NCBI RefSeq assembly: GCF_029323795.1
Contig: NZ_CP119758.1
Coordinates: 2,356,001 to 2,420,000, forward strand
Length of the DNA stretch: 64,000 nucleotides
Origin: Zobellia alginiliquefaciens
Lineage (GTDB): Bacteria; Bacteroidota; Bacteroidia; Flavobacteriales; Flavobacteriaceae
Reading direction: 5' to 3'
The notes below the pieces were generated by a model. It ran no database searches. It saw nothing but the letters and a program-made list of their open reading frames with translations, and was not told the DNA's origin. Of this stretch, positions 21,678 to 49,472 are shown one piece after another (within the stretch, counting starts at the first letter, position 1; every line of letters begins with the position of its first letter). The position numbers and the translations under genes are program-made.

Positions 21678-21758
21678 GCTCGAGTGGCGGAACTGGTAGA
21701 CGCGCTGGATTCAAAATCCAGTTCCTTTGGAGTGCGGGTTCGATTCCCGCCTCGAGTA
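21678..21758 (+). tRNA. tRNA-Leu(CAA)
   Basis: An 81-nt tRNA. The acceptor stem pairs GCTCGAG with CTCGAGT (first pair G-U) and the discriminator base is A58 (21758); the D arm is GTGGCGGAACTGGTAGACGC; the anticodon stem-loop CTGGA-TTCAAAA-TCCAG gives anticodon CAA (reads UUG); a short class II variable arm follows, then the T arm GCGGG-TTCGATT-CCCGC. CCA is not encoded. The 3' end recurs at 49358-49379, so the gene is the likely insertion site of the adjacent island. Confidence 0.95.
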
Positions 21759-21759
21759 C
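21738..21759 (+). repeat. Left attachment-site repeat (tRNA-Leu 3' end)
   Basis: T-loop through acceptor 3' half of the tRNA (GTTCGATTCCCGCCTCGAG then TAC). Pairs with 49358-49379. Confidence 0.65.
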
Positions 21760-21763
21760 GATT

Positions 21764-21798
21764 AAACCCTGTTAATCATTTGATTAATAGGGTTTTTT
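21764..21798 (+). terminator. Intrinsic terminator after tRNA-Leu
   Basis: 15-bp stem (AAACCCTGTTAATCA / TGATTAATAGGGTTT, one G-U pair) followed by a T run at 21793-21798. If the island model holds, this terminator came with the island. Confidence 0.85.
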
Positions 21799-21807
21799 GG
21801 TTTTAGG

Positions 21808-21829
21808 GGTAACAGAATGGTAACAGAAT
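21808..21829 (+). repeat. Two tandem 11-bp repeats inside the island's left end
   Basis: GGTAACAGAAT at 21808-21818 and again at 21819-21829, without mismatch. Direct repeats of this size beside a tRNA attachment site resemble integrase arm-binding sites; that role is inferred. The remaining 21830-21927 interval holds nothing further that I recognise. Confidence 0.6.
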
Positions 21830-21927
21830 TTTAGAATAAAAAGCATATTTAACGCCAGAATAATTAATACCGCTCTCTTTGTATTTGTCTTATTTAATTA
21901 AATATTTTGGAAATCTTTTAATGAAGA

Positions 21928-22968
21928 TTAGAATAGAATACAAACGGGTGTCGGTGCCATAATTTGGTCGATATAGCTTAATAAACCATTAGTTTTGTTG
22001 CGTTTAAAGGATACTAGTGAATTTGTTTTTTGATTAGCTAGAATCAAAAAGTTCTCATCTGGAGTCAAAACAAAATTTCGGGGGCCAACTCCACGTACAG
22101 ATTCATGTCTAATTGCCGTTAGCCTACCATTTGTGTGGTTTACTTTGAAAATTACCACACTATTATGTCCGCGGTTTGACGCATATATAAATTCACCGTC
22201 AGATGAAATTATAATTTCGGCGCTCGTATTTGGCAGTTTATAAGTTTTTGGTAATGTAGAAATTGAATTATCTATCTCATAGCTTACATTGTCAGTTTTT
22301 TTTATAAGAGATATTGTTGATGATAGTTCATTAATAACATAAAACCATTTTTTATTAGGATGCCATGCTAAATGTCTTGGGCCAGAACCAGCGGGCATTG
22401 TTAATTTGTGTTGTTTTCTATAGATAAGTTTCTTATTAGCGTAATCAATTTTTGAAAAGTAAAGCTTGTTAGACCCCAAATCTATAGAAATAATATTGTT
22501 TTCATCCTCCTCAAACCATACAGAATGTGCATGAGGCCCTTCCTGTCGAATATTTGAACCTTTTCCGGTATGTTGTTGTACATAAAGGAGGTTTGATAGT
22601 TTGCCGGTTGATTTTAACTGTAGAAAACCAATTGATCCACTTCCGTAATTGGCGGTAAGGACATGGCCTTGTTGATTTATATTTATAAAACAGGGGGACA
22701 TACCTCCGGATGTTTTTTTGTCAAGTAAAGATAGGGTTTCATCATGAATAGCATAAGATTCGATAGTGCCAACGTTATTTCCGCCATTTTCATTAACTAA
22801 TAAGAGGTACTGTCCATCATGACTTTTTGTAATGAACGAAGGATTGTCTGTCTTGGCAACGATGCCTTTTTTACTTAAATATCCTTTAGAATTTATGGAA
22901 TACATATATACCCCTTCACTCTCTTCATAAGTGTAAGTTCCAATAAAAAACTGATATTTTTTACCCAT
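21928..22968 (-). CDS. Lactonase family protein (6-phosphogluconolactonase-type beta-propeller)
   Basis: A 346-residue seven-bladed propeller of the YbhE/Pgl type. Landmarks are FFIGTYTYEESEGVYMY at the start, LLLVNENGG, NYGSGSIGFLQL, GPHAHSVWF, GSGPRHLAWHPNKKWFYVINE and GPRNFVLTPDENFLILANQ. No signal peptide, so cytoplasmic. YbhE-type enzymes hydrolyse 6-phosphogluconolactone, but relatives in sugar loci act on other aldonolactones. Here it is the first gene inside the island and could supply the lactonase step between the SDR (32271) and the enolase-superfamily dehydratase (33098); this is inferred. It is followed upstream on the same strand by the HAD gene. Confidence 0.88.
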   Translation of the reverse strand: MGKKYQFFIGTYTYEESEGVYMYSINSKGYLSKKGIVAKTDNPSFITKSHDGQYLLLVNENGGNNVGTIESYAIHDETLSLLDKKTSGGMSPCFININQQGHVLTANYGSGSIGFLQLKSTGKLSNLLYVQQHTGKGSNIRQEGPHAHSVWFEEDENNIISIDLGSNKLYFSKIDYANKKLIYRKQHKLTMPAGSGPRHLAWHPNKKWFYVINELSSTISLIKKTDNVSYEIDNSISTLPKTYKLPNTSAEIIISSDGEFIYASNRGHNSVVIFKVNHTNGRLTAIRHESVRGVGPRNFVLTPDENFLILANQKTNSLVSFKRNKTNGLLSYIDQIMAPTPVCILF

Positions 22969-23062
22969 AACATGAATTCAAATTTTGCTCCGATATAATA
23001 TGTATTAATTAGACTAATTTTGTTGCTTAAATAAAGATTTAAAATTATTTGTGGAGTTTTCA

Positions 23063-23755
23063 TCAGGATTGATCTCTATGTAGTAATTGATGGTCTATTA
23101 ATTGATTTAGATTAATAATTTTATTCCCATCGAAGTCACTTGTAGCTGTATTACGTCTATCTAACCATATGGCCTTCATTCCAGAATTTAAACTCCCTAA
23201 ATAGTCTAACTTAAATGAATTCCCAATATAAATACATTCTTCAATTTTTTTGTTTGCCTGTTTTGCGGCATATTGAAAAATTCTTTTATCAGGCTTGGAA
23301 AATCCAACTTTTTCCGATATTAAAATTTGGTCTAAATATTTATGAAGATTATTATGTCTTAATTTAAATATTTGATCAGGGTATGTTCCATTAGATATTA
23401 GACCAATACTTAAATCAGATAATTTTTCTAAAGTGTTAATAGTGTCTTCAAAAATTAAACAAGAACTAAGGAAGTGTTTGTGGTATTTGGAATAAATTTT
23501 TTTAGACGTTGAAACGTTTAAATTTTCTCCAAAATATTTCCAAAATTCTTGGATTCTAGAAATTCTTTGCTGTTCAAGATCAATTTCCTTTTCAAAATAA
23601 ATTGCTAAATATTTGTTTGTGATGTTCATCCAGGTTTCTGCAATGTTTTCTGGTACACTATCTTTAAAATATTCTTTAAATAGCGCTTTAATGGCAAATT
23701 CATGAGCGCTTTCGCTATCTATCAATGTGTCGTCAAGGTCAAAAAAAATGTGCAT
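23063..23755 (-). CDS. HAD-superfamily hydrolase
   Basis: A 230-residue haloacid dehalogenase-type phosphatase. Motif I is FFDLDDTLIDS with the nucleophile Asp, motif II the Ser/Asn of LSIGLISNGTY, motif III the Lys of GFSKPDKRIF, and motif IV the acidic region around IYIGNSFKLDYLGS. The helical cap between motifs I and II suggests subtype I (YjjG/sugar-phosphate phosphatase-like). Substrate unknown; in this locus a sugar phosphate is plausible. Motif IV carries Asn-Ser where many relatives have Asp-x-x-x-Asp, though a later Asp is present. It sits 29 bp downstream of the regulator gene on the same strand. Confidence 0.85.
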   Translation of the reverse strand: MHIFFDLDDTLIDSESAHEFAIKALFKEYFKDSVPENIAETWMNITNKYLAIYFEKEIDLEQQRISRIQEFWKYFGENLNVSTSKKIYSKYHKHFLSSCLIFEDTINTLEKLSDLSIGLISNGTYPDQIFKLRHNNLHKYLDQILISEKVGFSKPDKRIFQYAAKQANKKIEECIYIGNSFKLDYLGSLNSGMKAIWLDRRNTATSDFDGNKIINLNQLIDHQLLHRDQS

Positions 23756-23784
23756 ATATTAATGTGTTTAATTAATATTTCCCT

Positions 23785-24816
23785 TTAGAAACTACTCCTT
23801 CTTACCAGTCTAAAATCGCATTTAATTTTTTTGAATGATTTGTTGAGAATCATATTGGCTGCGACTTCCCCCATTTGATAAAAATCAGTTGAGAGTACAG
23901 TCAGACCGTTCAATATCATCTCATTTATTGGTGATTCGTTATAAGAAATTATACCTATGTCGCTACCAATGTTGTAATCTTTTGATATTGCTGTCTTTGC
24001 AAGTTCAATTAGCTCTTTGTCTAATTGACCGTTGAGTATAAGGTAAACCTGATTTTTTTTAATATCTTCAGGAGTAGCTTGATAGAGGATTTCATAATCA
24101 ATACTATTGTCGGAACAGAACTTAGCTATACCTTTTTGAAGGAAAGGTGCATATAGGCTTCCCTTCAATGAGATTACATTTAATTTTTTGTATTTTTTCA
24201 ACGTCTCCACTCCTTGTTGTAATCCATGGTACACATCATGCTCATAGTTTTGATATACCGATCCGAAATTCCCTGATAACCCTTCGATATGGTGATCTAG
24301 TAGTAGAAGCTTTCTATTGGGAATCTTTCCTAAGGAGTGAACAACTCTTTTTTGTACTTCTTCAATCAAAGGAAAATGAGGAGTAATAACATAGTAATCG
24401 TAATTATCGAGACCATCATCAAGAAACCTTTCGAAGGTAGATATATCTTGGTTATGCAAACGAATACTAATTTCTACGTTGTTTCCCAGCTTTTCTGAAA
24501 AGGAATCGAACATTGCTTGCTTATAAGTTCCCAGGCGATCAAAAATCAATAAAATGTTCAACTTATTGATTTTAGATTCAGAAATATAGTAACCCTTCCC
24601 TTGAGCAGATTCTAATAGGTTTTTCTTTCGCAATAGGGAATAAGCCTTTTTAACGGTTTCTTTTGAAATGTTGAGCTCCGATGATAAATCGTTTAAAGAT
24701 GGAACATAGTCACCACTACGGTACTCCCCTGAATCTACTAAATATTCAATACTCTTAACTAGTTGTTTGTAAAGAGGCTCTTTTGACTCTATTTCAATTT
24801 CAATTTTAGAATGCAT
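23785..24816 (-). CDS. GntR-LacI chimeric (AraR-type) transcriptional regulator
   Basis: A 343-residue regulator. Residues about 10-78 are a GntR winged helix (PLYKQLVKSIEYLVDSGEY, SLNDLSSELNISKETVKKAY, KGYYISES). From about residue 85 the chain follows a LacI/periplasmic-binding-type effector domain: LNILLIFDRLGTYKQAMFDS, YYVITPHF, KLLLLDHHIEG, IGIISYNESPINEMI, and the closing LTVLSTDFYQMGEVAANMIL. This domain order is that of AraR. It is divergent from susC; the intervening 158 bp hold the susC promoter and a palindrome TTGTA-TTA-TACAA close to the AraR half-site TTGTAC. Likely a repressor released by a sugar from the target glycan (inference). Confidence 0.9.
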   Translation of the reverse strand: MHSKIEIEIESKEPLYKQLVKSIEYLVDSGEYRSGDYVPSLNDLSSELNISKETVKKAYSLLRKKNLLESAQGKGYYISESKINKLNILLIFDRLGTYKQAMFDSFSEKLGNNVEISIRLHNQDISTFERFLDDGLDNYDYYVITPHFPLIEEVQKRVVHSLGKIPNRKLLLLDHHIEGLSGNFGSVYQNYEHDVYHGLQQGVETLKKYKKLNVISLKGSLYAPFLQKGIAKFCSDNSIDYEILYQATPEDIKKNQVYLILNGQLDKELIELAKTAISKDYNIGSDIGIISYNESPINEMILNGLTVLSTDFYQMGEVAANMILNKSFKKIKCDFRLVRRSSF

Positions 24817-24876
24817 ATGCGTATTTGATATTTTGTATGATTTTAATTGAGGGTAATTTAAAAATACTCTTATTTA

Positions 24877-24907
24877 TTTGCTAAGTTAATAATTAATTTT
24901 ATATTTG
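24877..24907 (+). promoter_or_regulatory. Promoter of the susC operon
   Basis: TTTG at 24877-24880, a spacer of 19 nt, and TATATTTG at 24900-24907: a full match to the Bacteroidetes -33/-7 consensus. The transcript should start near 24914, leaving a leader of about 60 nt. Confidence 0.8.
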
Positions 24908-24919
24908 ACACCACACTAC

Positions 24920-24947
24920 ACAACAGTATTGTTGTATTATACAATAC
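24920..24947. promoter_or_regulatory. Operator candidate for the GntR-LacI chimeric regulator
   Basis: Nested palindromes just downstream of the expected susC start: TTGTA-TTA-TACAA at 24932-24944, flanked by GTATTGT (24926-24932) and ACAATAC (24941-24947), and ACAACA-GTAT-TGTTGT at 24920-24935. The central one resembles the AraR operator (TTGTAC-GTACAA core). Its place after the start site fits a roadblock repressor. Confidence 0.6.
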
Positions 24948-24974
24948 CGTTATAAATAACCGAAATTACAAATT

Positions 24975-27900
24975 ATGAAAACAACCGAAATTCATTTAGG
25001 ACCAAACAAGCTTCTGGGCAATCAAAGAAGTCTCTCTCTCTTTATCCTACTGAACTTTTTGTTCATCAGTCAAGTGTTTGCCCAAAATACCGCCTCAGGA
25101 ACTGTTTCTGAGGAAAACGGAACACCATTGCCTGGGGCAAATATTGTTGAAAAGGGTACTACCAATGGGGTGACCGCTGATTTCGATGGTAATTTTACAA
25201 TCAAGGTTTCAAGCTCTAATTCCACATTAATAGTATCCTACATCGGTTACACAACTAAGGAGGTAATAATGAATGGACAATTTGCTCATAAAGTAATATT
25301 GGAGCAAAGTGCTGCAGGACTTGATGAAGTAGTCGTAATTGGGTATGGAAGTATAAAGAAAAAAGACTTAACTGGGTCGGTTGCCTCTATTGACAGTGAG
25401 GATATTAAATCGGTTCCTACGGGTACTTTGGCAAGGTCGATTCAGGGGAGAGCATCAGGGGTTCAAGTTCAACAAAATTCAGGGTCTCCTGGCTCTGGAA
25501 TTCAAATTAGAATTCGTGGAACAAATTCCATAAGCGGCAGCAATGAGCCACTGTGGATTATTGATGGGTTTCCTGGGGATCAAAATACAATTAATCCTAA
25601 TGATATCGAAAGTATGGAAATTCTAAAAGATGCCTCTGCTACTGCGATATATGGGTCGCGGGGTGCTAATGGTGTAATTATTATAACTACTAAAAGTGGT
25701 AAGTTAGGTAAAACGAAAGTGTCTTTCGAAAGTAGCTATGGGTTGCAAAAGGTAAGAAATAAATTGGATTTGCTGAATGGTAAGGAATATATGGAATTCA
25801 TAAACATACAGCAAGTAAATGATTTAGGACAAGCGTTTTTTACAGAAGAAGAGATAAATAATGTGGGAAATGAAACCGATTGGCAAGATGCATACTATAA
25901 TCTCGCGCCAGTTCGAAATAAAGCGATCACTGTAAGTGGTGGCAGTGAAAAAACTCAATTCTCTGTAAGTTATGGGCATTTTGATCAAGAGGGAGTAATT
26001 GGCAATAATAACTTCGATAGGCATACTCTTAGGGCTAAAATAAATCATGATATAAGTGATAAGTTAAGTTTAAAATATAATATGAATTTCAGTGAAACCA
26101 AGAATGAAAATGAGTATGCATCTGCTGGATTCAGAGGAAATTCTGTTATCAGTGCTATTTTGGGTGCCCCTCCGACTTTGAGTCCATATGACGAGAATGG
26201 GGAATATCGGGAATTAAGATATTCATATCCTTTTATGAGTGATGGCCTATTGAACCCAGAGGCATATATACAAGAAAACTCAAGTGTTCAAAAAACTCGA
26301 AACACTACAATTGGTCTTGGTCTTGAGTATAAGCTAAATAGCGATTTAATTGTAAATTTGTCAGGTAATTATATTAACATAGATGGGAGGTCGGATTCTT
26401 ATAGAACTCTGGAGTATCCTGGCTCACAAGGTAATGGCGCAATTAGTACGTCTAATAATAGAACTATAGCCAGTAACAATATTATAACTTATAATAAGAC
26501 CTTAGGAACCTCTCATAACATATCGTTGACAGGAGGGGTAACTTATGAAGAATCCTTGTCTACGGGTATAGGAATTTCAGGGTCAGGTTTCTTAAGTGAT
26601 GCAACAGAGAACTATGGGATTGGAGCTGCTAATGTGGTGGGTAATCCAGGTTCTTCTTATACTAAATGGCAATTGTTATCTTATTTGGGTAGATTAAATT
26701 ACTCTTATGATGATAAGTATTATGTAACTGCCAGTTTCCGTTCAGATGGATCCTCCAGGTATAGTGAAGGAAATAAATGGGGTTATTTTCCGTCGGCTGC
26801 TTTAGCTTATCGAATTTCAGAAGAAAACTTTATGGAAGATATATCCTTTATAAATAATCTGAAATTGAGGGCAGGTTATGGGGAGACAGGAAGCACTGCT
26901 ATTTCACCATATACAACCCTTAACATGTTGTTTACGGGTAAAGCTACTTTTGGAGATGACAGTTATACAACTTATGAGCCTTCTGACAGGTTCCCAGGAC
27001 CTTTAAGGTGGGAAACAACTCAGCAAACAGACGTAGGGGTGGATCTGTCGCTTTTCGATGGAAAAATTAATTTCGTTGCGGATTATTATGTCAAAAACAC
27101 TAATGATTTACTTAACTCAGTTCAATTACCTAGATCTCTAGGGTATTCTTATACCATTCAAAACATAGGTAAAGTTCAAAATAAGGGTTGGGAATTTCAA
27201 CTTGATGCAAAACTTTTGGATGGAGATGTAAAATGGAATGTTTCTTCCAATATTTCTTTCAACAAAAATGAAGTAATTGAGTTGTATGATAATCAAGACA
27301 TTCTCGCACCTAATATAAATATTACAGTACTTATTGATTATCTTAACTTGATTAGAGAGGGTCAGCCGATGAATGTCTTTTATGGCTATCAAAGTGATGG
27401 TTATGATGAGAATGGTAACTTTAAATATGTTGACTTGGATCAGAGCGGAGATATTACTTCGGAGGATAGAACATATATAGGTAATCCCAATCCTGATTTT
27501 ATTTATGGTTTCAATTCGAATCTATCATGGAAAAATTTTGATTTTGATATCTTTTTTCAGGGCTCTCAGGGTAACGATATTTATGCTTTAGGAATGGTTG
27601 CTCAGACTATTGACTTTGGAATGGGGTTGAATACGTTAAAAGATGTGCTGTATAATCATTGGACACCAGAAAATCCCAATTCACAATATCCAAAAATTAG
27701 TACCTCTACAACACCAAAAATTTCAGATTCATACGTTTTTGATGGTTCTTATTTAAGACTAAAAAATATTCAGTTGGGCTATAATATTCCAGTAGAAAAA
27801 TTGCGTATACCATTGCTGCAAAAGGGTAAAGTATATATAAGCGGACAGAATTTATTGACATTTACCAAATACCCGTGGCAAGATCCTGAGATTAACAGTT

Positions 27901-27992
27901 TTGGAGGTGCTAGTTCCCTCAGGCAGGGTATTGACCAATATTCCTATCCCGTAGCAAAAACATTTACGTTTGGGGTTAAACTCGATTTTTAA
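24975..27992 (+). CDS. SusC/RagA-family TonB-dependent outer-membrane transporter
   Basis: A 1005-residue outer-membrane importer for oligosaccharides, working with the SusD lipoprotein. A signal peptide (ending VFAQ near residue 37) is followed by a carboxypeptidase-D regulatory-like domain (ASGTVSEENGTPLPGANIVE), the TonB box region DEVVVIGYG, the plug (GSVASIDSEDIKSVPTGTLA; IRIRGTNSISGSNEPLWIID; MEILKDASATAIYGSRGANG) and a barrel ending in FTFGVKLDF with terminal Phe. Length is normal. It opens the plus-strand operon behind a consensus promoter; the SusD gene starts 23 bp downstream. Confidence 0.96.
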   Translation: MKTTEIHLGPNKLLGNQRSLSLFILLNFLFISQVFAQNTASGTVSEENGTPLPGANIVEKGTTNGVTADFDGNFTIKVSSSNSTLIVSYIGYTTKEVIMNGQFAHKVILEQSAAGLDEVVVIGYGSIKKKDLTGSVASIDSEDIKSVPTGTLARSIQGRASGVQVQQNSGSPGSGIQIRIRGTNSISGSNEPLWIIDGFPGDQNTINPNDIESMEILKDASATAIYGSRGANGVIIITTKSGKLGKTKVSFESSYGLQKVRNKLDLLNGKEYMEFINIQQVNDLGQAFFTEEEINNVGNETDWQDAYYNLAPVRNKAITVSGGSEKTQFSVSYGHFDQEGVIGNNNFDRHTLRAKINHDISDKLSLKYNMNFSETKNENEYASAGFRGNSVISAILGAPPTLSPYDENGEYRELRYSYPFMSDGLLNPEAYIQENSSVQKTRNTTIGLGLEYKLNSDLIVNLSGNYINIDGRSDSYRTLEYPGSQGNGAISTSNNRTIASNNIITYNKTLGTSHNISLTGGVTYEESLSTGIGISGSGFLSDATENYGIGAANVVGNPGSSYTKWQLLSYLGRLNYSYDDKYYVTASFRSDGSSRYSEGNKWGYFPSAALAYRISEENFMEDISFINNLKLRAGYGETGSTAISPYTTLNMLFTGKATFGDDSYTTYEPSDRFPGPLRWETTQQTDVGVDLSLFDGKINFVADYYVKNTNDLLNSVQLPRSLGYSYTIQNIGKVQNKGWEFQLDAKLLDGDVKWNVSSNISFNKNEVIELYDNQDILAPNINITVLIDYLNLIREGQPMNVFYGYQSDGYDENGNFKYVDLDQSGDITSEDRTYIGNPNPDFIYGFNSNLSWKNFDFDIFFQGSQGNDIYALGMVAQTIDFGMGLNTLKDVLYNHWTPENPNSQYPKISTSTTPKISDSYVFDGSYLRLKNIQLGYNIPVEKLRIPLLQKGKVYISGQNLLTFTKYPWQDPEINSFGGASSLRQGIDQYSYPVAKTFTFGVKLDF

Positions 27993-28015
27993 ATAAAAAG
28001 CAAATACCTATTATT

Positions 28016-29446
28016 ATGAAAAATTTATTCTTAGCCGTAGTTATTATATGCTTACATATTTCTTGTGAGAACGCTCTTGAAGAAGTGCCAAAAGCAATTG
28101 CAGCAGAGACTTTCTATAAAACTGAAGCAGAATTCGAAGCAGCTATCTATGGTGCATATAGACAATTGGAGCGAGGTCCATTTCACCGTAATTACTTACT
28201 GGTAAATTTATCTCAAGTAGATTATGGGGTAGGAAGAGGCTCATATTCCTCAACAAGTAATTTTCAGGGGTTGGATCCAACTAATATTGATAGAACTAGT
28301 AATATGTGGTCATATTTTTATCGTTCTATTCGTGACGTGAACCTTGTTATTCAAGAAGCAAGTGGGTCAGATGTTGAAATTAATGCAACCATATTGAATC
28401 CGCTAATTGCCGAGGCAAAATTTCTAAGGGCGTTTAATTATTTTCATTTGGTCTTAAACTGGGGGGGAATCCCTTTGAGGACGGAAGATAACATATCAGA
28501 CCCGGATTTGCCGAGAAGTTCTGTAGAAGATGTTTATGCGAAAATAGTTGAAGATTTGGAATTTGCTGAACAGTATTTACCTGATGATCAGAGTTTGGCT
28601 GGTCGCCCTATCAAAATGACTGCTAAAACTCTTTTGGCCGATGTTTATTTGAACATGGGTAGTTGGCAAAATTCTAGGGATAAAGCATTAGAGGTAATAA
28701 ATTCTAACAAATATCAACTCATAAACGTTTCTGAACCAGATGATTTTTACCAAATTTTTGGTTCCAATGTTCTATCCACATCTGAGGAGATCTTTTATAT
28801 GAAGTACAATCCCTTGAGTCCAAGTTCCTTTACAGTTATGCTTCACAAGGATAACCGTGATTATTATTATGGTAATGGAGCATATGCGGCTTATGTGCCC
28901 GATAGTTCCGAGAATAAAACAATTTCCGAATGGGATTTTCAAGATCTACGTAGGAGATTTAACTTATATAATTGGGATATCGGCGTTGGTCCAAAAACAC
29001 TATTGTACAAAAAATTCACAGATCCAGACCAGAGCTTAAGTTGTGATTACACTGTGTATCGTTATGCTGATTTACTTTTGATTTATGCAGAAGCTGATAG
29101 TCGGGCAAATGGAGGGCCTACGGCTGACGGTATGGAAAAACTCAATATGATCCATAGACGTGGATATGGACTTGATCCCAATACGCCTTCTATTGAAGAT
29201 TTCAACTTTGCTGATTATACCGAAGAGACTTTTATAGATTTAGTATTGCAAGAACGTCTTTACGAATTATTTTCAGAACACAAACGGTTCTATGATCTAA
29301 GGAGAACAGGAAGATTAAAAAGCACCATTAAAGATGTGAAGGGAATTGACGTCGCAGATAAACAATTTCTTTGGCCAATTCCCAACATTGAATACGAATA
29401 TAATAATGCTATTGATCCAGGTTCTGATCAAAACCCTGGATACTGA
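28016..29446 (+). CDS. SusD/RagB-family glycan-binding lipoprotein
   Basis: A 476-residue surface lipoprotein. The signal MKNLFLAVVIICLHISC ends at Cys17; next comes ENALEEVPKAIAAETFY, the usual SusD N-terminus. The TPR-like core shows AEAKFLRAFNYFHLVLNWGGIPL and MTAKTLLADVYLNMGSW, and the C-terminal block shows DYTVYRYADLLLIYAEA, LVLQERLYELFSEHKRFYDLRRTG and QFLWPIPNIEYEYN. It caps the SusC barrel and binds the incoming glycan. Paired with the susC gene 23 bp upstream; substrate cannot be read from sequence. Confidence 0.96.
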   Translation: MKNLFLAVVIICLHISCENALEEVPKAIAAETFYKTEAEFEAAIYGAYRQLERGPFHRNYLLVNLSQVDYGVGRGSYSSTSNFQGLDPTNIDRTSNMWSYFYRSIRDVNLVIQEASGSDVEINATILNPLIAEAKFLRAFNYFHLVLNWGGIPLRTEDNISDPDLPRSSVEDVYAKIVEDLEFAEQYLPDDQSLAGRPIKMTAKTLLADVYLNMGSWQNSRDKALEVINSNKYQLINVSEPDDFYQIFGSNVLSTSEEIFYMKYNPLSPSSFTVMLHKDNRDYYYGNGAYAAYVPDSSENKTISEWDFQDLRRRFNLYNWDIGVGPKTLLYKKFTDPDQSLSCDYTVYRYADLLLIYAEADSRANGGPTADGMEKLNMIHRRGYGLDPNTPSIEDFNFADYTEETFIDLVLQERLYELFSEHKRFYDLRRTGRLKSTIKDVKGIDVADKQFLWPIPNIEYEYNNAIDPGSDQNPGY

Positions 29447-29487
29447 TTTTACCTTTTAATGTAGTAGTATAAAGTATTATTTATAAC

Positions 29488-30915: not shown

Positions 30916-30958
30916 AAATACCGGTATAAACTAATAAGAGGTAAATATAAACAGGTTG

Positions 30959-32209: not shown

Positions 32210-32270
32210 TTGGCATTAAACTGTATAAGTGAATTATTAAAAAAAAAATGCTTACGATAAAACGATATAT

Positions 32271-33047: not shown

Positions 33048-33097
33048 TTTCGAGTATAATATTCATGGGATGTTGAAATTTTAGAAAAAATAAACTA

Positions 33098-34261: not shown

Positions 34262-34299
34262 GATAGATTTATCTCATTAGCGATTGATATCTGAAATTG

Positions 34300-34335
34300 T
34301 TAGTTGAGTTAGTTGAGTTAGTTCAGTTGGTTGAG
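34300..34335 (+). repeat. Four 9-bp tandem repeats
   Basis: TTAGTTGAG, TTAGTTGAG, TTAGTTCAG and TTGGTTGAG in direct succession, running straight into the following hairpin. Function unknown. Confidence 0.8.
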
Positions 34336-34360: not shown

Positions 34361-34480
34361 TCAATCACCGAAAAAGTTTAATATAAAATTTTAGCACAAA
34401 ATCACACATATCGTAAACAACTATAAATGAGCAATTCAGAACTAAATATTATTTTTAGAAACTCTTCTTTTGAAAAGGTC

Positions 34481-36418: not shown

Positions 36419-36440
36419 CCTATCTACCTAAAAAAATTAT

Positions 36441-39672: not shown

Positions 39673-39698
39673 ATTTTTCAGTAAAAAAGACCTTTAAA

Positions 39699-41120: not shown

Positions 41121-43106
41121 ATGAGAAAAACAATTTTTGCCATTATACTTATTTGTGGTCTTGGGTCAATGTTATCCAGTTGCGAGTATATTGATATAAA
41201 AGATATAAAAGATTTCGTTGATGATGACAATGTGAATTATATAAAACCCCAATGGTTTGGGGCAACTATGGATGGAGTTACAGACGATAGGGACGCATTT
41301 GTGGCTACATTGGATGCTGCAGACTCAACAGGAAAAAAGATAATCATTGACAAGGATATATTCCTTGATGTAGAGGAGATTGGTGCCAAGACTATTTTTA
41401 TACCTGATAATATTTATATAGAGGGGAAAAATGGAGCTAAGATAATAGTTAACCATCTACGTTCCCCCGCCTTCATAATGGCGCTCAGCAATAATGTTAC
41501 TATTAAGGACATTACAATTTTATATGACAACGCTTACGATGCATCCATAAATTATGGGTCGGATGCTAGTATAAAAGATTTGAATCAAGCTAATCTTCAA
41601 AATTATCTTGAAACTGAAAGAAATATTACTTTCAACAATTCAAACCCTATCTACAAAGGGGCTATTAACTTCATGTATACTTTTCTTCTCTATGCGGCAA
41701 GTGATATCAATTTTGATAATGTAAAATTTAAAGCAAAAGGTAAAACTGCTGATACTTTTATGATAGGCGGTATAAAGTTCAATGAACAATACAATTCAGA
41801 CCAAGAAGTTGTTGACAATGATTTGGAAGATACCAATATATGTAGAAACATTACTTTTAAAAATTTGGTGTTCGACGGGACTTTAATGGGAGTTCAAGGT
41901 ATAGTCAAGAATTTTGAAAGCACGGGCTTAAGGTCTTATCGATATTCGGATGCTCAATCAGCGGATGGTTCAAATATTGGAGGAGCGGACAAATGGATGC
42001 CACCGCCACACTTAATATATCTGAATAGTGATAACTCGCCTACCTACAATTGTAGTGATGTAAGATTTATTGATACTGTAGATTATGGTGAATACGTGGG
42101 GAATGAAGATGTTAGGGGATCTAGCGGTTATTGCCATTCTTTAAAACTGGTCGATAAACAAAATAACCCTTATGTAGATGGTTACAAATCCTTTAGAAGA
42201 GATGGTTTAGGCGATTTTGGAGGAATAGAAAATGGAGTTTTTAAAGATATATATGCAGAGTTTAATTCTTCAATATTTAGCGCTTCATGGCAATTTAATG
42301 CTTTTAGATGGGTAGGAACTGTAAATAATTCAAGTTTTCAAAATATTGAATTGCAAGATAATGCAGCAATTGCAGCAGTGTATCCTCTAGATGCAATGAC
42401 AGGGTCGGGAAATTTAATGGATGCTATTGATATTTATGTTAAGGAACTGAATACAATTTATTCTGGTCCTTTTGGGATTAGTGGAAGCGGTAATACTATC
42501 ATAAATTCAACTCTTGATATAGAAACTCACTCATCAACTCAAGAATGGAGAGGTGTTGTGTATCATAATGATTTGGCTATGAATGAGGGAGGTGGTAATC
42601 ATTATGAAGTCGTTGTAAAAGGTTGGAGGGATATTAGCCCAAATCCGAGAGCGTTGAGGTCAAGAATGCTGTTTGCAAAACCTGTCAACCCGAACAATAA
42701 CTATGCTAAAGTTATAGACCTAAACAACCATTATATTATAGAGCAAATTAATAATGAAGTAACAGCAACTTGGACTATAACAGAAACGGTTGATTTAGGC
42801 TCGCTACAGGAACAGCAATTGGAAATTCTTGTTGATGCAGATTATTCAATTGTAGATGTACAAGCAAGTGTACTTAGTGATTTGGACGCTAATATAACTT
42901 CATTGTCATTAGGAACTAATTCGGGGGCTGCAAACAACCTGTTGCCAAATATTTCTACCACTGGATCAACAATAGCCAATATAAATGAACCTTCATTAAC
43001 GGGTTCTGGCTCAGATAGAAGTCTATATCTAAGAGGTAATACGAGTTTCAACGATATGGGCGAAGTGAAGGTGACAATGACTTTAAGAAGAATTGACACA
43101 AATTAG
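41121..43106 (+). CDS. Pectate lyase-fold (right-handed beta-helix) lipoprotein
   Basis: A 661-residue lipoprotein: signal MRKTIFAIILICGLGSMLSSC ends at Cys21. After an acidic linker comes the pectate-lyase-3 style start KPQWFGATMDGVTDDRDAF, then beta-helix rungs (NIYIEGKNGAKIIV, NNVTIKDITILYDN, RNITFKNLVFDGT, NSSFQNIELQDN, GNTIINSTLDIET). The last 150 residues look like a separate beta domain. The fold hosts lyases, C5-epimerases and glycosidases (for example GH28-like), but no family signature tells which. Position between GH105 and GH29 suggests action on the same glycan, at the outer surface. Confidence 0.7.
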   Translation: MRKTIFAIILICGLGSMLSSCEYIDIKDIKDFVDDDNVNYIKPQWFGATMDGVTDDRDAFVATLDAADSTGKKIIIDKDIFLDVEEIGAKTIFIPDNIYIEGKNGAKIIVNHLRSPAFIMALSNNVTIKDITILYDNAYDASINYGSDASIKDLNQANLQNYLETERNITFNNSNPIYKGAINFMYTFLLYAASDINFDNVKFKAKGKTADTFMIGGIKFNEQYNSDQEVVDNDLEDTNICRNITFKNLVFDGTLMGVQGIVKNFESTGLRSYRYSDAQSADGSNIGGADKWMPPPHLIYLNSDNSPTYNCSDVRFIDTVDYGEYVGNEDVRGSSGYCHSLKLVDKQNNPYVDGYKSFRRDGLGDFGGIENGVFKDIYAEFNSSIFSASWQFNAFRWVGTVNNSSFQNIELQDNAAIAAVYPLDAMTGSGNLMDAIDIYVKELNTIYSGPFGISGSGNTIINSTLDIETHSSTQEWRGVVYHNDLAMNEGGGNHYEVVVKGWRDISPNPRALRSRMLFAKPVNPNNNYAKVIDLNNHYIIEQINNEVTATWTITETVDLGSLQEQQLEILVDADYSIVDVQASVLSDLDANITSLSLGTNSGAANNLLPNISTTGSTIANINEPSLTGSGSDRSLYLRGNTSFNDMGEVKVTMTLRRIDTN

Positions 43107-43168
43107 AAAAGTGCAATTATTCATATAAACAACGTAAGAGAGTATAAACTACTAAATATAAGACTTTT

Positions 43169-44554
43169 ATGAAATGTAAAATTGCAAGTTTACTATTGTT
43201 TTTTCTACTTATAGCAGAAGGATTAAGTGCCCAGGATAAACATCCTGAGTATCAATATCCAAAAGAACAAGAAAAAATGAAAACCTTGGAAGAATGGCAG
43301 GACATGAAATTTGGCCTGTTTTTGCATTGGGGTACTTATAGTCAATGGGGCATTGTAGAATCATGGTCGCTTTGCCCAGAAGATGAGGGGTTTACCTCCG
43401 TTCGCCCTGAAGGAATGAGCTATTTCGACTATGTTAAGGAATATGAAAACCTTCAGACTACGTTTAATCCAGTCAATTTTAATCCAGAAAAATGGGCAAA
43501 GGCAGCTGAATATGCGGGTATGAAATATATGGTGTTTACCACTAAACATCATGATGGTTTTAATATGTACGATACAAAAGAGTCGGACTATAAAATCACT
43601 AGCACTAAGACTCCGTTTAGCTCAAATCCTAGAGCTGATGTAACTAAAGAGATATTTGATGCCTTTCGTGCCAAGGATTTTATGGCGGGAGCCTACTATT
43701 CTATTTCTGATTGGCACCATAACGATTTTTGGTGGGATTATTTTCCACCGTTTAATCGTCAAATTAACTATTCACCTGAAAAATATCCAGCAAAATGGCA
43801 GAACTATAATGATTTTATTTACAACCAACTGGATGAATTGACAAGTGACTATGGAAAATTGGGCATGTTATGGTTCGATTTGAATAATGTGTCAAATGAA
43901 AAAAAGGTTGATTGGGCTCGATTTGAAAAAGTGATTAGCGATAATCAACCCCAAGCCTTGCTAGTTGCTCGTCATATGTATACGGAATACGAGCACTATC
44001 GTACTCCAGAACAACAGGTTCCGGACAAGGCATTGGATTACCCATGGGAGACTTGTATGACAATGGGCGAAAAATGGTCCTATAGGCCTAATGAGAATTA
44101 TAAATCGGTATACGAATTGGTCCAATTACTGGTTAAAATTGTTTCGAGAGGCGGAAATTTCCTGTTGAATGTTGGCCCTAGCCCCAATGGTGATTTTGAC
44201 GATACCGCCTATGAACGTTTAGAGAGTATTGGTGATTGGATGAAAATCAATGGAGAAGCTATTTACGGTACAAAACCAATAGTTCCATACCATGAAACCA
44301 AATTGGTGTTTACCCAAAAAGATGATTTTGTCTACGCATTTTATCTCCCCGATGAAGGAGAAACAAAAATGCCGGCTAGAATTTCCATTTCGTCCATGCA
44401 ACCAAAAGAAGGGGATGAGGTTTATTTACTTGGGTATAATAAACCATTAAAATGGGAGAAAAATGGTACAGGATTTTTCGTTGAGATTCCTGTGGAACTG
44501 CAGCGAAAACCCAAGTGCGAAAATGCGTGGGTATTAAAATTTCAGAATGAATAA
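43169..44554 (+). CDS. GH29 alpha-L-fucosidase-like
   Basis: A 461-residue secreted enzyme (signal ends LSAQ). GH29 landmarks: WQDMKFGLFLHWGTYSQWG, AGMKYMVFTTKHHDGFNMYD, AGAYYSISDWHH, and LGMLWFDLNN, where Asp237 matches the family nucleophile of the WFD motif; the C-terminal part of the barrel shows VKIVSRGGNFLLNVGPSPNG and is followed by a beta domain. GH29 enzymes release alpha-L-fucose and, in algal systems, sometimes alpha-L-galactose. The presence of this gene is the main reason to suggest fucose or L-galactose in the target glycan. 62 bp after the beta-helix gene. Confidence 0.92.
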   Translation: MKCKIASLLLFFLLIAEGLSAQDKHPEYQYPKEQEKMKTLEEWQDMKFGLFLHWGTYSQWGIVESWSLCPEDEGFTSVRPEGMSYFDYVKEYENLQTTFNPVNFNPEKWAKAAEYAGMKYMVFTTKHHDGFNMYDTKESDYKITSTKTPFSSNPRADVTKEIFDAFRAKDFMAGAYYSISDWHHNDFWWDYFPPFNRQINYSPEKYPAKWQNYNDFIYNQLDELTSDYGKLGMLWFDLNNVSNEKKVDWARFEKVISDNQPQALLVARHMYTEYEHYRTPEQQVPDKALDYPWETCMTMGEKWSYRPNENYKSVYELVQLLVKIVSRGGNFLLNVGPSPNGDFDDTAYERLESIGDWMKINGEAIYGTKPIVPYHETKLVFTQKDDFVYAFYLPDEGETKMPARISISSMQPKEGDEVYLLGYNKPLKWEKNGTGFFVEIPVELQRKPKCENAWVLKFQNE

Positions 44555-44636
44555 GATTTATATGACAGCTTCTATAGTTGAACTCATAAACAATCAATCC
44601 ATAGTAGTTTAAAAATAAAGTAAGATAAACGCAATC

Positions 44637-45512
44637 ATGAGGAAATGTAACATTTATTATTTGACAGTACTTTTTACGATTATCATGAATATGGTCAATA
44701 TTCAAATGAGTTTTGCACAATCGACCAATCATCTGCCAAAAGATAAAACCTGGAAGTTAGTGTGGAATGATGAGTTTAACGGGAAAGAATTGGATACCAC
44801 AAAGTGGGGATTTAGGCTGCATATAATGCAAACTCGCCATATAACTTGGACGGATGACGCTTATAAATTAGACGGTAAGGGTAGTCTGCTGATGAAAGCG
44901 TATAAAAATGAAGGAGAATATCATACCACACAACTACAAACGGGAAGCAATTTCATGGATCGGCCCGGAAATCAGTATGGAAAGACAGAATTGACTTGGC
45001 CAATAGCGAATCTGAAATCCCCCAAGTTTTTACATAAATATGGGTATTATGAAATTCGATGCAAATTACCGACCCAAGAAGGATGGTGGGTCGCATTTTG
45101 GTTACAATCTCCAACCATAGGCTCATCATTGGACCCCTTGGCTTCTGGAGTGGAAATCGATATCATGGAGAATTTTAAAAGAAATGGTACGATTAGCCAA
45201 AATATTCATTGGAACGGGTATGGAGAAAACCATGAGCACGAGGGATCTGGTGAAATGAAAATGGGTTTGAACGATAACGAGTTTCATACCTACGGGGTTG
45301 ATTGGAGTCCAACAGGCTATGTTTTTTATGTTGACGGAAAGGAAACTTGGCGGATATCTGGTCCTGTTTCCCATACAGAGCAGTTTATTTTGGTATCTGC
45401 GGAATGCAATGGGTATCGGGAAGGAGCTGCGTCCCCGATTCTTAAAGAGGCTATACTACCTGATTATTTTGAAGTCGATTACGTACGGGTGTATGATGAA
45501 GTAAAAATTTAA
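44637..45512 (+). CDS. GH16 family endo-glycosidase
   Basis: A 291-residue secreted enzyme (signal ending SFAQ). The beta-jelly-roll GH16 domain shows KLVWNDEFNGKELDTTKW, YGYYEIRCKLPTQEGWWVAF and the active site VEIDIMENF with the ExDxxE form (Glu173 nucleophile, Asp175, Glu178 acid/base), then FHTYGVDWSPTGYVFYVDGK and a C-terminal DYVRVYDE strand. The ExDxxE form occurs in laminarinases, agarases, porphyranases, kappa-carrageenases and endo-galactanases; the exact subfamily is not readable here. A free-standing catalytic domain with no carbohydrate-binding module. Confidence 0.92.
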   Translation: MRKCNIYYLTVLFTIIMNMVNIQMSFAQSTNHLPKDKTWKLVWNDEFNGKELDTTKWGFRLHIMQTRHITWTDDAYKLDGKGSLLMKAYKNEGEYHTTQLQTGSNFMDRPGNQYGKTELTWPIANLKSPKFLHKYGYYEIRCKLPTQEGWWVAFWLQSPTIGSSLDPLASGVEIDIMENFKRNGTISQNIHWNGYGENHEHEGSGEMKMGLNDNEFHTYGVDWSPTGYVFYVDGKETWRISGPVSHTEQFILVSAECNGYREGAASPILKEAILPDYFEVDYVRVYDEVKI

Positions 45513-45586
45513 AAATGAGTGTAGAATAATTAAACTATCGAATTCAGCATTTTAAAAAAATCAAACAACCCAAATCAAAAGACAAT

Positions 45587-47080
45587 ATGCAACGACGAAT
45601 TTTTTTAGAAAAAATACCCACCCTTGGTCTGGGGGTTTTTCTACTTCCTTCAACTGCATGTGATTTACTTTCAGAAGTTAGATTTAAAGGGACCAAAACA
45701 ATCGATGTAAAGATTATTTCCCAAAATCCAATTGAAATTCCAAAAGGGAAAAGAGCTGCATTTGGATGGCGTACAGCCGGTATAAGGCCTAATGACTTTA
45801 TTGTTTTAAAGCCATTATCAAACCTTCCAAACACAAATGTTTTTTTTAGGATATCCATAGCTCAAGAAACGTGGGACGAAAAATTATTGAAAATTAGAAT
45901 ACCTGATACTGAAATTGATATAGGCTCTATAGCTATTAAAAGTTCTTCCGTATTGGTACCATACGAACTCGAAATTGATAAAAAACATGTTCGGTCAATA
46001 AATAAACATGGTCTTGTCCTTTTTCTGGAAGCTTCTGAGCCACTTTGGATTTTTGACAGGCAATCAATCGATGGTAACAATCAATTATTATTGCCACATC
46101 TTTGTGTTTCTACTGAGAAAAATGGTTCCGTAGAGACCTTTTTGGACAATTTTATGTCACTTAACTCAATACAGGCATTTGGCTGGCGAGAAGGAACAGT
46201 GCTTGATGGTCTTTGGCAGATTTACTCACAAAAAGGTACGCAACAGGCTTTGGACATTATTAAAAAGCATTTTGATTTATTTTTTGATGATAATAAAAAT
46301 CTAATCTATGAAAATGCTCATAGTATGCCAAAGTTTAATCAAATAGATGGAATTGAATCTACAATTCCATTTGCAACATTAGCTCGGTTAGATGCTTCTC
46401 ATCCAATATTAAAAACAGTAGTCAAAGCTTGGGATTCTTATACAAAAGAGAACGGTATGGTTACCGATGGCCATTCACTTACCGCCGAGGGATGTTATAC
46501 GGTGGCATATCCAATGGCGGTTATCGGAAAATTGTGGAAACGTAAAGATTTGATGCAAAATGCTTTGGAACAGCTCAGACATCGTTTTGTATTGCTGAAC
46601 AATGGCTCTTTTTACTTACGGTATAACCAAGGAGAAAAGACATATAAGAATTGGGCAAGGGGTGCAGCGTGGTTTTTATTGGGGTCCGTTCGAACAATTT
46701 CTGAACTGGAAGGAGAAATCGAGGATCAGGTAATTATAGAAAAGTTTAGAGAGGGAGTTGATATTGTTGTTGCTATGCAACGCGAAAATGGGCTATGGAA
46801 CTGCTTTATGGATCAAGATGTTGCACCTGATACTTCTGGCTCTGCCGGAATTTCGGCAGCAATTATGACAGGGGTACAAAATGGTTATTTGGAGTCAAAA
46901 TATGCGATATATGCTAAAAAATGTTGGATAGGTCTGCAGCAGTACCTTACACCGGATGGTTTTCTTAAAGGAGCAGCTCAAGATAATAGGGGAGGAATTG
47001 GATTGCAACAAAGTAATTATCGAGTAATTGCCCAAATGGGAATGGGAATGATGGCCCAATTATATGCCTTTAGAAAATAA
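45587..47080 (+). CDS. GH88/GH105-like hydrolase with N-terminal beta domain, probable lipoprotein
   Basis: A 497-residue protein. The leader MQRRIFLEKIPTLGLGV has an RR-x-F-L-K-like Tat pattern and ends in STAC, a lipobox Cys. Residues about 30-165 form a beta-rich domain; from about 180 an alpha/alpha6 barrel follows, with GIESTIPFATLARLDASHP, DGHSLTAEGCYTVAYPMAVI, YKNWARGAAWFLLGSVRTI (compare WSRGQAWGL of GH88) and DTSGSAGISAAIM. The barrel part suggests an unsaturated-uronyl hydrolase; the usual Asp positions are not clear to me, so family assignment is tentative. Follows the GH16 gene by 74 bp. Confidence 0.7.
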   Translation: MQRRIFLEKIPTLGLGVFLLPSTACDLLSEVRFKGTKTIDVKIISQNPIEIPKGKRAAFGWRTAGIRPNDFIVLKPLSNLPNTNVFFRISIAQETWDEKLLKIRIPDTEIDIGSIAIKSSSVLVPYELEIDKKHVRSINKHGLVLFLEASEPLWIFDRQSIDGNNQLLLPHLCVSTEKNGSVETFLDNFMSLNSIQAFGWREGTVLDGLWQIYSQKGTQQALDIIKKHFDLFFDDNKNLIYENAHSMPKFNQIDGIESTIPFATLARLDASHPILKTVVKAWDSYTKENGMVTDGHSLTAEGCYTVAYPMAVIGKLWKRKDLMQNALEQLRHRFVLLNNGSFYLRYNQGEKTYKNWARGAAWFLLGSVRTISELEGEIEDQVIIEKFREGVDIVVAMQRENGLWNCFMDQDVAPDTSGSAGISAAIMTGVQNGYLESKYAIYAKKCWIGLQQYLTPDGFLKGAAQDNRGGIGLQQSNYRVIAQMGMGMMAQLYAFRK

Positions 47081-47158
47081 ATACTCATTTATTTAATCGG
47101 CAAAACTTAAAATATAATAGGGGTAAAGGAATCAGTAAATAAATAAAAGCAAATCACT

Positions 47159-48025
47159 ATGCGTCTAATCGTGGTAATTATTATAGTATTTATCAATAAT
47201 ATTACTTTTGCACAAAACAATACCGATGTAAGTTTGTTTTTTAAAAAGGATAGTACAAACTACTTAAATGAGGTAAGCTCCAAGGAGGGAGATTTATTTA
47301 ATGTTTTGGGGCATCATGGATCAGCTATTGAAAATGAGTGGCTTGGTTTTAGAATCTATTTTAACAAGGTGGCCGCTATTGATGTATACTCTAAAACGAA
47401 AGAAGGTTTAGAGATACGTAAAGCACAATGGTACCCTAGCGTGGAACAGCAAAAAAATGGATGGGGTGCGGATTATTATAAAGTTGGGAATACGGTAGGA
47501 CTTGGCGGTATTCGATTATGGGATGGGGAAAAGGTAGTGCCCTTGAACCCCATTACCAAAAGAACTGCAAGAGTGGTAAAGGAAGGAACTATTTCTTATA
47601 TGGAAATGCTTTCTGAAGGCATACCATACAAAAATACAAATGTTGATATATTGGTACGGGTAACCGTTTTTACGGGTATTCGTAAAGCCAAGGTAGAAGC
47701 ATTTGCCCTTACCTCCGAACCTGTACAATTTGTCACAGGAATTAATCATCACCCAGGGCATAAGATTAATAGTGAGTCTAACTATATTTCCACATGGGGT
47801 TTACACCCCGAAGATGTGGCGGTGGATAAAATTGAAATAGGGTCTGCAATACTGTTTAATCCCAATGATTTTGTTCAAAAAATCAGCGAAGAAAGTCAAT
47901 ATCTACTTGTATCAAAACCAACAAAACTATTGGAGAGTTGGATTGTTTCAGCTAATGCTAAAGAAAAAAAGCTAAATACCTTTGAAAAGTTTTTAGCGTA
48001 TATTGAGGAAGAATCAAAACTCTAA
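47159..48025 (+). CDS. DUF4861 family secreted protein
   Basis: A 288-residue secreted protein (signal MRLIVVIIIVFINNITFAQ). DUF4861 blocks seen: GSAIENEWLGFRIYFNK, AIDVYSKTKEGLEIRKAQWY, WGADYYKVGNTVGLGGIRLWDG, and FVTGINHHPGHKI. The family is beta-rich, common in marine Bacteroidetes polysaccharide loci, and has no confirmed activity that I can cite. It is the last plus-strand gene of the locus and converges with the DUF6807 gene, 92 bp away. Confidence 0.85.
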   Translation: MRLIVVIIIVFINNITFAQNNTDVSLFFKKDSTNYLNEVSSKEGDLFNVLGHHGSAIENEWLGFRIYFNKVAAIDVYSKTKEGLEIRKAQWYPSVEQQKNGWGADYYKVGNTVGLGGIRLWDGEKVVPLNPITKRTARVVKEGTISYMEMLSEGIPYKNTNVDILVRVTVFTGIRKAKVEAFALTSEPVQFVTGINHHPGHKINSESNYISTWGLHPEDVAVDKIEIGSAILFNPNDFVQKISEESQYLLVSKPTKLLESWIVSANAKEKKLNTFEKFLAYIEEESKL

Positions 48026-48117
48026 TAAATCTTCGAAAGTAAAACGGGAAACTCTTTATATGCTTATTTCGATTATGGAATTCAGTAACCTGTTGTAACC
48101 CTTACAATTTCTAAAAG

Positions 48118-49050
48118 CTAATTTTTTCCAAAGTCAGTATGTATTGATTCAATATCAAGAGCCTCATTGTCGCCTTCATGAACAAGCAACCGATAACGTA
48201 AAGTTGTAGGTTGAGTTTCTGATAAAGGTACGGCACTTTCTCCGGGATAAGGGTAAACGGCATTTTGCATACTTCCTTTGGAGCGCAAAACCCATGGATT
48301 TGGAAAGCCGGGATTATCCGGATGACTAAGAATGCTCAGTCCTGAGAGCACGCCGTCTTTACTAAAAGACCCAGAAATATCTATCCAGTCACCTGCAATT
48401 ACGGGTAAAATGTCGGGTGTTACCACTCCAGTAGAACTGGCGAAAGCAATATCGTTTACTAGACGAACTCGAGCAGAAAAACCTCCATAACCTGTTTTAT
48501 TTTGAGCCCCACCTAGACTCATATTTGACTCTAAAGCGCATATAGATATTTTAATGTCTATTTGTCGATAACGATTTTTAGTGGGGTAGACTTTTATTGT
48601 AGTCATTTCTCTAACTACAGGCTTTTCTTTACCATTTTCATCCTTCCAACGAGTGGTTTTCCATAGCACTTCAGCTTGTATAGCTTTAGCTTTTCCCTCA
48701 ACCTTGAGCTCTTTGACGGATTTTACAATCCAGTGAAAATCATTTATATCCCATGCATCTCCTAATTTTGTGTCGTTAATGTATAATTGATGCCACGCCC
48801 AAAAAACACCTCTATGATGTAGATGGTCTTTAGGGAAGTCCTCAGTTAGTATTTGACCATCCAAAGTATACAGCGGGTGTATATAATTAGATCTTTTATA
48901 AGTGCCATTCAGCGATTTGTCAGCTATTTGGTAATTCAAGATGCTATCCTTATTTTCCGTAAAACAGGCTATATTACTTTGAATTTTGACGTTAATGTTT
49001 TGTGCGCTTAGAATATTTGTTAGACTGATAAATAATAATAATCGATACAT
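48118..49050 (-). CDS. DUF6807 family (misnamed PmoA) secreted protein
   Basis: A 310-residue protein with signal MYRLLLFISLTNILSAQ. The block YIHPLYTLDGQILTEDFP followed by KDHLHHRGVFWAWHQ is diagnostic of DUF6807, named PmoA in some databases but unrelated to methane monooxygenase. The His cluster HLHHRG suggests a metal or catalytic site; the beta-rich C-terminal half includes NAVYPYPGESAVPLSET. Often found in carbohydrate loci; function unknown. It is the last gene of the island and the only minus-strand gene on that side. Confidence 0.85.
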   Translation of the reverse strand: MYRLLLFISLTNILSAQNINVKIQSNIACFTENKDSILNYQIADKSLNGTYKRSNYIHPLYTLDGQILTEDFPKDHLHHRGVFWAWHQLYINDTKLGDAWDINDFHWIVKSVKELKVEGKAKAIQAEVLWKTTRWKDENGKEKPVVREMTTIKVYPTKNRYRQIDIKISICALESNMSLGGAQNKTGYGGFSARVRLVNDIAFASSTGVVTPDILPVIAGDWIDISGSFSKDGVLSGLSILSHPDNPGFPNPWVLRSKGSMQNAVYPYPGESAVPLSETQPTTLRYRLLVHEGDNEALDIESIHTDFGKN

Positions 49051-49357
49051 GTTAACTTGTTAAAAATTATCCGAAAATTTAAGTACTATAATTTTCGATA
49101 AAACATTCTCATTTTATGTTATGAAAGTAGGCGATTTTTAAGGTTTTTACATACTAAAATGATAGGTATGTCATAATGGTGAGCTTATTATTTTTTATTC
49201 AGTAAGAAAGTTGCCTGAAGCAATATTAAAATTAAGTCTTTTAGATGCTCGAATTAGCAGGTCGTTTTAAGACCAATGAGAAAAATAAGAGGGAATAAAG
49301 TAATTCTTACGTTAAATATATTATGAACCATAAGGTTATATTCTCTTGTTTGAATAA

Positions 49358-49379
49358 GTTCGATTCGCGCCTCGAGTAC
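49358..49379 (+). repeat. Right attachment-site repeat (displaced tRNA-Leu 3' end)
   Basis: Matches 21738-21759 at 21 of 22 positions; the one change (C to G in the T-stem complement) would break pairing in a real tRNA, and the rest of a tRNA is absent upstream. Confidence 0.65.
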
Positions 49380-49392
49380 AGAGTAGAAAGAA

Positions 49393-49422: not shown

Positions 49423-49472
49423 ATGCCCAAAAATATAGATTCAAAATTACAACTTTCACTACCTTAGCAACT

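Follow-up and report, generated by a model that had tools for sequence, protein, structure and literature searches.

A 27.6-kb polysaccharide utilization island in Zobellia alginiliquefaciens, probably inserted site-specifically at the 3' end of tRNA-Leu(CAA)

INTRODUCTION

Exchange of polysaccharide loci is regarded as widespread among marine flavobacteria, but its vehicle is seldom seen. Here we describe an island of Zobellia alginiliquefaciens that carries a polysaccharide utilization locus and adjoins the 3' end of tRNA-Leu(CAA), within a stretch of 64,000 nucleotides of contig NZ_CP119758.1 (assembly GCF_029323795.1, positions 2,356,001 to 2,420,000). This whole stretch is referred to as the window, and its own numbering is used throughout. 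Our search of the open-access literature found no paper on this island, and several kinds of described or comparable elements come closest to it. In gut Bacteroidetes, 47 loci with SusC and SusD are reported on mobile elements (PMC6907783); there, as in the island, a SusC/SusD locus forms the cargo of an integrated element. The island differs from these gut loci in belonging to a marine flavobacterium, in having a tRNA-Leu site resolved to the base, and in representing an element without an integrase. Cis-mobilizable elements (CIMEs), for which PMC5704250 gives a definition and PMC3146451 a discussion, consist of cargo between left and right attachment sites (attL and attR). Like the island, they show no integration or transfer genes, although the attachment function of the island ends and an ancestry from integrative and conjugative or integrative and mobilizable elements (ICEs and IMEs) remain putative.

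The nearest relative by its ends is an element of Maribacter huludaoensis M208 (NZ_JARKMS010000002.1, tRNA-Leu(CAA), 48.5 kb), which we delimited in this work. It shares with the island the target tRNA, an identical tRNA-end repeat, and a left arm composed of a hairpin and a GTAACA pair, whereas it differs in carrying an integrase with right-arm repeats and in its cargo, for which a comparison with island open reading frames (ORFs) of at least 150 aa returned one protein match, a short-chain dehydrogenase/reductase (SDR). The M208 element additionally encodes an HTH_17 protein and a DUF5712 protein, the latter presumably of mobilization type; no relaxase family was matched in the three M208-element proteins scanned. 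Islands in three further genomes (G418, G177, and G299) also occupy tRNA-Leu(CAA) and have twin repeats with an 11-nt period, with an integrase at the right end. Unlike the Zobellia island, their tRNA repeat extends further toward the anticodon loop, either GGTACAACATA or GGTCAAACATA is present in both arms, and the integrase ORF comprises 405-408 codons.

RESULTS

ARAGORN identified tRNA-Leu(CAA) at 21678-21759 (plus strand) as the sole tRNA of the window, and the single-contig genome of 5,066,785 bp contains one match to it. As the initial annotation had described, the last 22 nt of this intact gene, GTTCGATTCCCGCCTCGAGTAC at 21738-21759 (attL core, plus strand), recur as GTTCGATTCGCGCCTCGAGTAC at 49358-49379 (attR core, plus strand), and both copies can be read directly in the window. 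Their identity is 21/22, with the sole difference at 49367, where the right copy has a G; by our own arithmetic, about 5e-7 matches of at least 21/22 to a given 22-mer are expected over the two strands of 64 kb. The substitution falls, as claimed, on the 3' side of the T-stem, and inspection by eye confirmed a hairpin with a T-run behind each copy, at 21764-21798 and 49394-49422.

Comparison with the eight other Zobellia genomes revealed the uninterrupted site. In all eight, the last base of tRNA-Leu is followed without a gap by a spacer and terminator resembling window positions 49380-49427 (plus strand), which thus constitute the original downstream side of the tRNA. In blastn alignments of the eight congener loci with the window, the left block ends at 21759 (six genomes) or 21766 (two), the right block starts at 49358 in every case, and the overlap of the two blocks corresponds to the core. 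An empty site therefore exists, and the insert spans 21760-49379, a length of 27,620 bp that counts one copy of the core, which bears out the proposal of a 27.6-kb insertion bounded to the base. The accompanying prediction, that relatives would show tRNA-Leu joined to the terminator and then to a HipA-like gene, held for the tRNA-terminator junction but not for the gene behind it. Six congeners have about 1.8 kb between the terminator and HipA, all six alike (76-84% nucleotide identity); in G002 this segment was read as a TetR-type gene plus a gene for an alpha/beta hydrolase, and the hydrolase is present there in all six. Of the remaining two, G005 has HipA at another place and G008 has it on a different contig, its contig with tRNA-Leu stopping 167 bp past the tRNA. 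In the window, by comparison, the terminator region and the HipA_2 kinase-like gene of the flanking chromosome (49473-50252, plus strand; PF20613) lie 45 bp apart. The TetR and hydrolase genes of the six congeners are absent from window positions 49427-49473, so the right flank has changed as well; a hydrolase homologue with 77% identity is present elsewhere in the genome (G000 C1:1550511). A HipA-like protein was observed in all nine Zobellia genomes, and the HipA_2-like gene with its DUF3037 neighbor (49473-50625) matches the PADLOC candidate pair PDC-M66A/B.

Directly behind the tRNA, the island begins with a left arm that consists of its own terminator hairpin (21760-21799, plus strand) and of two copies of GGTAACAGAAT with an 11-nt period (21808-21829, plus strand), the sole exact copies in the window and putative arm sites of an integrase. 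Scanning of genome_contigs for the core end followed by repeats of this type detected six stretches; because the scan used the window's own arm, M208 and Muriicola were picked for their likeness to it. Two of the stretches (L129 and L132, the latter M208) lie directly at an intact tRNA-Leu(CAA) and one (L130, Muriicola) at tRNA-Leu(TAA). In L131 an intact tRNA-Leu(CAA) is followed after about 130 nt by a broken second copy, to which the core belongs, and in L128 and L133 other DNA precedes the core. L133, from a Bacteroidetes metagenome-assembled genome, has core and left arm after non-tRNA DNA and may represent a tandem or attP-like junction, attP being the attachment site of the circular element. 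A scan of viral_contigs gave a single match, with no adjoining tRNA in the part read and ORFs that we judged unrelated, and it was discarded. At the far end, both M208 and Muriicola encode a tyrosine integrase and have the repeats again as a right arm, with the integrase about 130 nt (M208) and 180 nt (Muriicola) from the right core, and the M208 integrase contains an Arm-DNA-bind domain. A search with the M208 integrase among 296 relatives returned four matches at 52-60% identity; the remaining matches listed did not exceed 36%. The Muriicola integrase is 51% identical. All four matches among the relatives are encoded less than 15 kb from tRNA-Leu(CAA), with a second tRNA-end copy adjoining the integrase, and all six integrase-bearing members found lie beside a tRNA-Leu. 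Right-arm repeats are located 146-150 nt before the core end, clearly in four of the six; G209 has a GTAGCG variant and G132 a weak form.

A profile of these left arms matched window positions 21763-21830 at E 2.9e-15 when built from five arms and at E 3.6e-11 when built from the three arms found through the integrase rather than the pattern. The empty tRNA-Leu sites of the congeners were absent from the best 25 and best 22 matches of the two profiles (down to E 0.37 and 0.0032, respectively), in test sets that contained mutually overlapping loci from the same places and, for the five-arm profile, one locus from a training place (L027, the top row). The site-specific insertion at a tRNA 3' end that had been claimed is therefore supported both by the eight empty sites and by tRNA-Leu integrase elements that share the left arm. 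Other tRNA-Leu(CAA) islands were also observed. In four Flavobacteriaceae genomes (G418, G177, G299, and G025; L099-L104 and L076-L078), a second, partial copy of tRNA-Leu(CAA) lies at a distance of 24-58 kb and the repeat is longer; three of these genomes have, at the far end, an integrase ORF of 405-408 codons that is of another type. In G311 and G352 (L106 and L107), integrase-like ORFs start beside the tRNA and not at the far end, that of G352 being short (185 codons).

The right-copy G was initially read as a mismatch that spoils a displaced tRNA end; its T-stem position stands, but decay is probably not the correct explanation. Among 397 family genomes, a sample that included four of the nine Zobellia genomes, the G variant occurs at two sites only, namely the window's right copy and position C10:742870 of Zobellia uliginosa C3R17 (G006). 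One side of the Z. uliginosa site resembles the right end of the window (88% over 42 bp including the core) and the other its left arm (81% over 113 bp including the core), an attP-like layout that would be expected of a joined circle. Because the same variant stands in this attP-like junction, the G at 49367 is probably the element's own attP letter, with a chance mutation in the window a possible alternative, and the crossover would then have occurred to its right, within the last 12 nt (49368-49379). The stretch over which the right copy matches the tRNA end without interruption is 12 nt long in the window and 23 nt long in M208, compared with 14 nt in four other relatives and 17 nt in one; in five of the six integrase-bearing relatives the right copy departs from the tRNA to the left of the last 14-17 nt, and in none of the six does the G variant occur.

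Wider synteny showed that Z. uliginosa has a 42.5-kb insertion beside mnmE. The attP-like junction lies in this insertion, next to cargo unlike that of the island. No repeat of the mnmE end was found in about 34 kb, and a lone repeat of 14-15 nt links the left arm with a site at a distance of 1.8 kb. The ends of the insertion look alike by eye (CCGATACAA), and a script found no direct repeat of at least 10 nt; the contig with the insertion gave no PF00589 match. The 3' side of mnmE resembles a second insertion hotspot of Zobellia, with a SusC/SusD-like locus in Z. uliginosa (G006 C10, about 700617-743190; L096, L127, L193-L195) and an integrase-like gene in G004 (L123 10303-11451).

The island interior was annotated by scanning 19 likely genes with Pfam, overlapping ORFs on the opposite strand having been set aside; 17 had a match, mostly carbohydrate-related, and two had none. 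With a SusC/SusD pair and glycoside hydrolases, it has the composition by which a polysaccharide utilization locus is recognized. On the minus strand at the left end are a 7-bladed lactonase (21928-22968; PF10282), a HAD hydrolase (23063-23755; PF13419), and a GntR-type regulator (23785-24816; PF00392). They are followed on the plus strand by a SusC-type TonB-dependent transporter (24975-27992; PF07715, PF13715), a SusD-type lipoprotein (28016-29446; PF14322, PF07980), and a GH39-like glycoside hydrolase (29488-30915), which scored 27.9 bits against PF01229 with a cut-off of 26 and has PslG and GH39 among its PDB relatives. An MFS transporter (30956-32209; PF07690), an SDR dehydrogenase (32271-33047; PF13561), and an enolase-superfamily dehydratase resembling galactonate dehydratase (33098-34261; NCBIfam NF010624, 340.3 bits, cut-off 311) are encoded next. 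The plus strand continues with a 663-aa protein without a family match (34427-36418), a SASA esterase with a GH2-type sugar-binding domain (36441-38369; Pfam), and a DLH/AXE1-like esterase (38275-39672; Pfam), whose start is uncertain and which overlaps the preceding gene. Next come a first GH88-family hydrolase (39669-40826; PF07470), a 661-aa protein without a family match (41121-43106), a GH29 alpha-L-fucosidase (43169-44554; PF01120), a GH16 enzyme (44637-45512; PF00722), a second GH88-family hydrolase (45587-47080; PF07470), and a DUF4861 protein (47159-48025; Pfam). A DUF6807 protein on the minus strand (48118-49050; Pfam) is the last likely gene, and the remaining right end (49051-49357) contains none. 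The galactonate dehydratase-like enzyme, GH29, GH16, and the two GH88-family enzymes together suggest a fucosylated, uronate-bearing galactan as the substrate; sulfatase families were unmatched among the 19 genes.

For several of these proteins, the closest relatives found lie outside the genus. The best other match of the island SusC across the nine Zobellia genomes is 42% among the matches listed, and the GH39-like protein occurs in three of 296 genomes, namely its own, G175 of another genus (79%), and the congener G002 (39%). In G175, eight neighboring genes are collinear with window positions 23063-34261, at 63-88% amino acid identity and 78% nucleotide identity over 8 kb, up to the contig end at which the locus stops (genomes in contigs are drafts). 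On another contig of G175, tRNA-Leu(CAA) is followed by a terminator that resembles the left arm of the family (E 4.3e-5) and has no twin repeats (L173 4132-4180).

DISCUSSION

Taken together, the empty site, the repeat, and the left arm make it very probable that the island was inserted site-specifically at the 3' end of tRNA-Leu(CAA) through attachment sites of the M208 integrase type. An integrase of this type would have recombined attP with the tRNA-Leu end, the tRNA gene would have stayed intact after the insertion, and the island would subsequently have lost its integrase or would never have carried one.

Several observations weigh against this interpretation. Among the 19 likely genes, none gave a Pfam match to a family of integrases, relaxases, or transposases. 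In addition, phmmer comparison of ten integrases of the same genome and six from related islands with window ORFs of at least 50 codons gave no match at E 1e-3, and tblastn of six M208-type integrases against 21501-49600 reached a best E of 1.1, leaving no relic. The genome as a whole has no match to the M208 integrase at E 1e-20. Beyond about 30 nt, the right side of the island resembles nothing in the M208-type family and has no repeats above chance (best 11/17, with shuffles of the right side mostly at 11-13, and Z. uliginosa likewise at chance), so that the family assignment rests on the core and the left arm. Even the left-arm GTAACA pair is clear in just three of the six integrase-bearing relatives, a variant in two, and unseen in one. 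HipA directly follows the terminator in none of the eight congeners. The comparison of composition inside and outside the island, which had been proposed as a check, revealed modest differences: the codon-use distance exceeds all 500 of 500 gene-label permutations, but GC content differs little (0.371 inside, 0.395 to the left, and 0.383 to the right). A foreign origin is also shown for only part of the island, as the relatives of the 661-aa protein, at 42-46% identity, come from four congeners, with no match elsewhere at E 1e-20. Because the listed relatives of this protein of the second half are confined to congeners, the two halves may have different histories.

Two rival explanations can be set against this reading. 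An island ancestral to the genus and cleanly excised in the eight other species would leave an identical empty site, since precise excision restores it, but this requires loss in eight of eight genomes and leaves the nearest relative found for eight of its genes in another genus, and we regard it as very improbable. Homologous recombination through the flanks, with the 22-nt repeat incidental, appears even less credible. Nothing specific speaks for it beyond the altered right flank, with its two genes missing before HipA, while the boundaries coincide with the tRNA 3' end and the repeat in all eight comparisons, the attachment arm adjoins the core, and a base-exact empty site contradicts it.

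Within site-specific insertion, two accounts of the missing integrase can be compared. The plainer one is decay in place to a CIME, in which an integrase-bearing element would have inserted and then deleted the integrase, the right-arm repeats, and any transfer genes. The position that holds the integrase in relatives corresponds here to the roughly 300 bp without a likely gene, and such decay is described for other islands (PMC5704250, PMC3146451). With no integrase relic and no decay noticed elsewhere in the locus, we consider this account somewhat favored rather than established. Alternatively, the island may have arrived without an integrase, as a satellite whose reduced attP was served in trans by a helper integrase now gone from the genome. 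Consistent with this, the G letter, which none of the six integrase-bearing relatives has, is common to islands of two Zobellia species; the two islands possess mutually closest left arms (85% over 75 nt) despite different cargo, and lack both an integrase and right-arm repeats above chance. The likeness of their right sides, however, is confined to about 30 nt, a length at which 3 of 300 shuffles score as high, compared with 253 of 300 at 300 nt. The comparison thus does not demonstrate a common integrase-free right end or a shared integrase-free ancestor; moreover, neither genome has an M208-type integrase at E 1e-20. We regard arrival in trans as unlikely. A tentative extension of it, slightly more doubtful still, would be that integrase-free polysaccharide islands form a lineage in Zobellia, with a reduced attP (a full left arm and a right arm consisting of the core), and that they swap cargo and spread by borrowing the integrase of tRNA-Leu elements, in effect as catabolic satellites.

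The island has the tRNA-Leu 3'-end core and the left-arm hairpin with the GTAACA pair of M208-type elements, whereas right-arm repeats and a right-end integrase gene, both expected by analogy at 49051-49357, were looked for and not found; because these two defining features are missing, it is not an autonomous M208-type element. Nor did Pfam reveal an integrase and relaxase of its own, as an ICE or IME would have. With attL and attR at its two ends and no integration or transfer genes found (two genes being without a family match), it would be, by function, a stranded, CIME-like island.

A polysaccharide locus on an integrative element is a kind of structure already known, and the present island is a base-resolved example of such movement of gene sets. 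Because a related locus in another genus is available together with the empty site, the attachment arm, and a candidate family of integrases, its excision and integration become directly testable. The mobility of integrase-less loci, including movement in trans, thereby becomes an experimental question.

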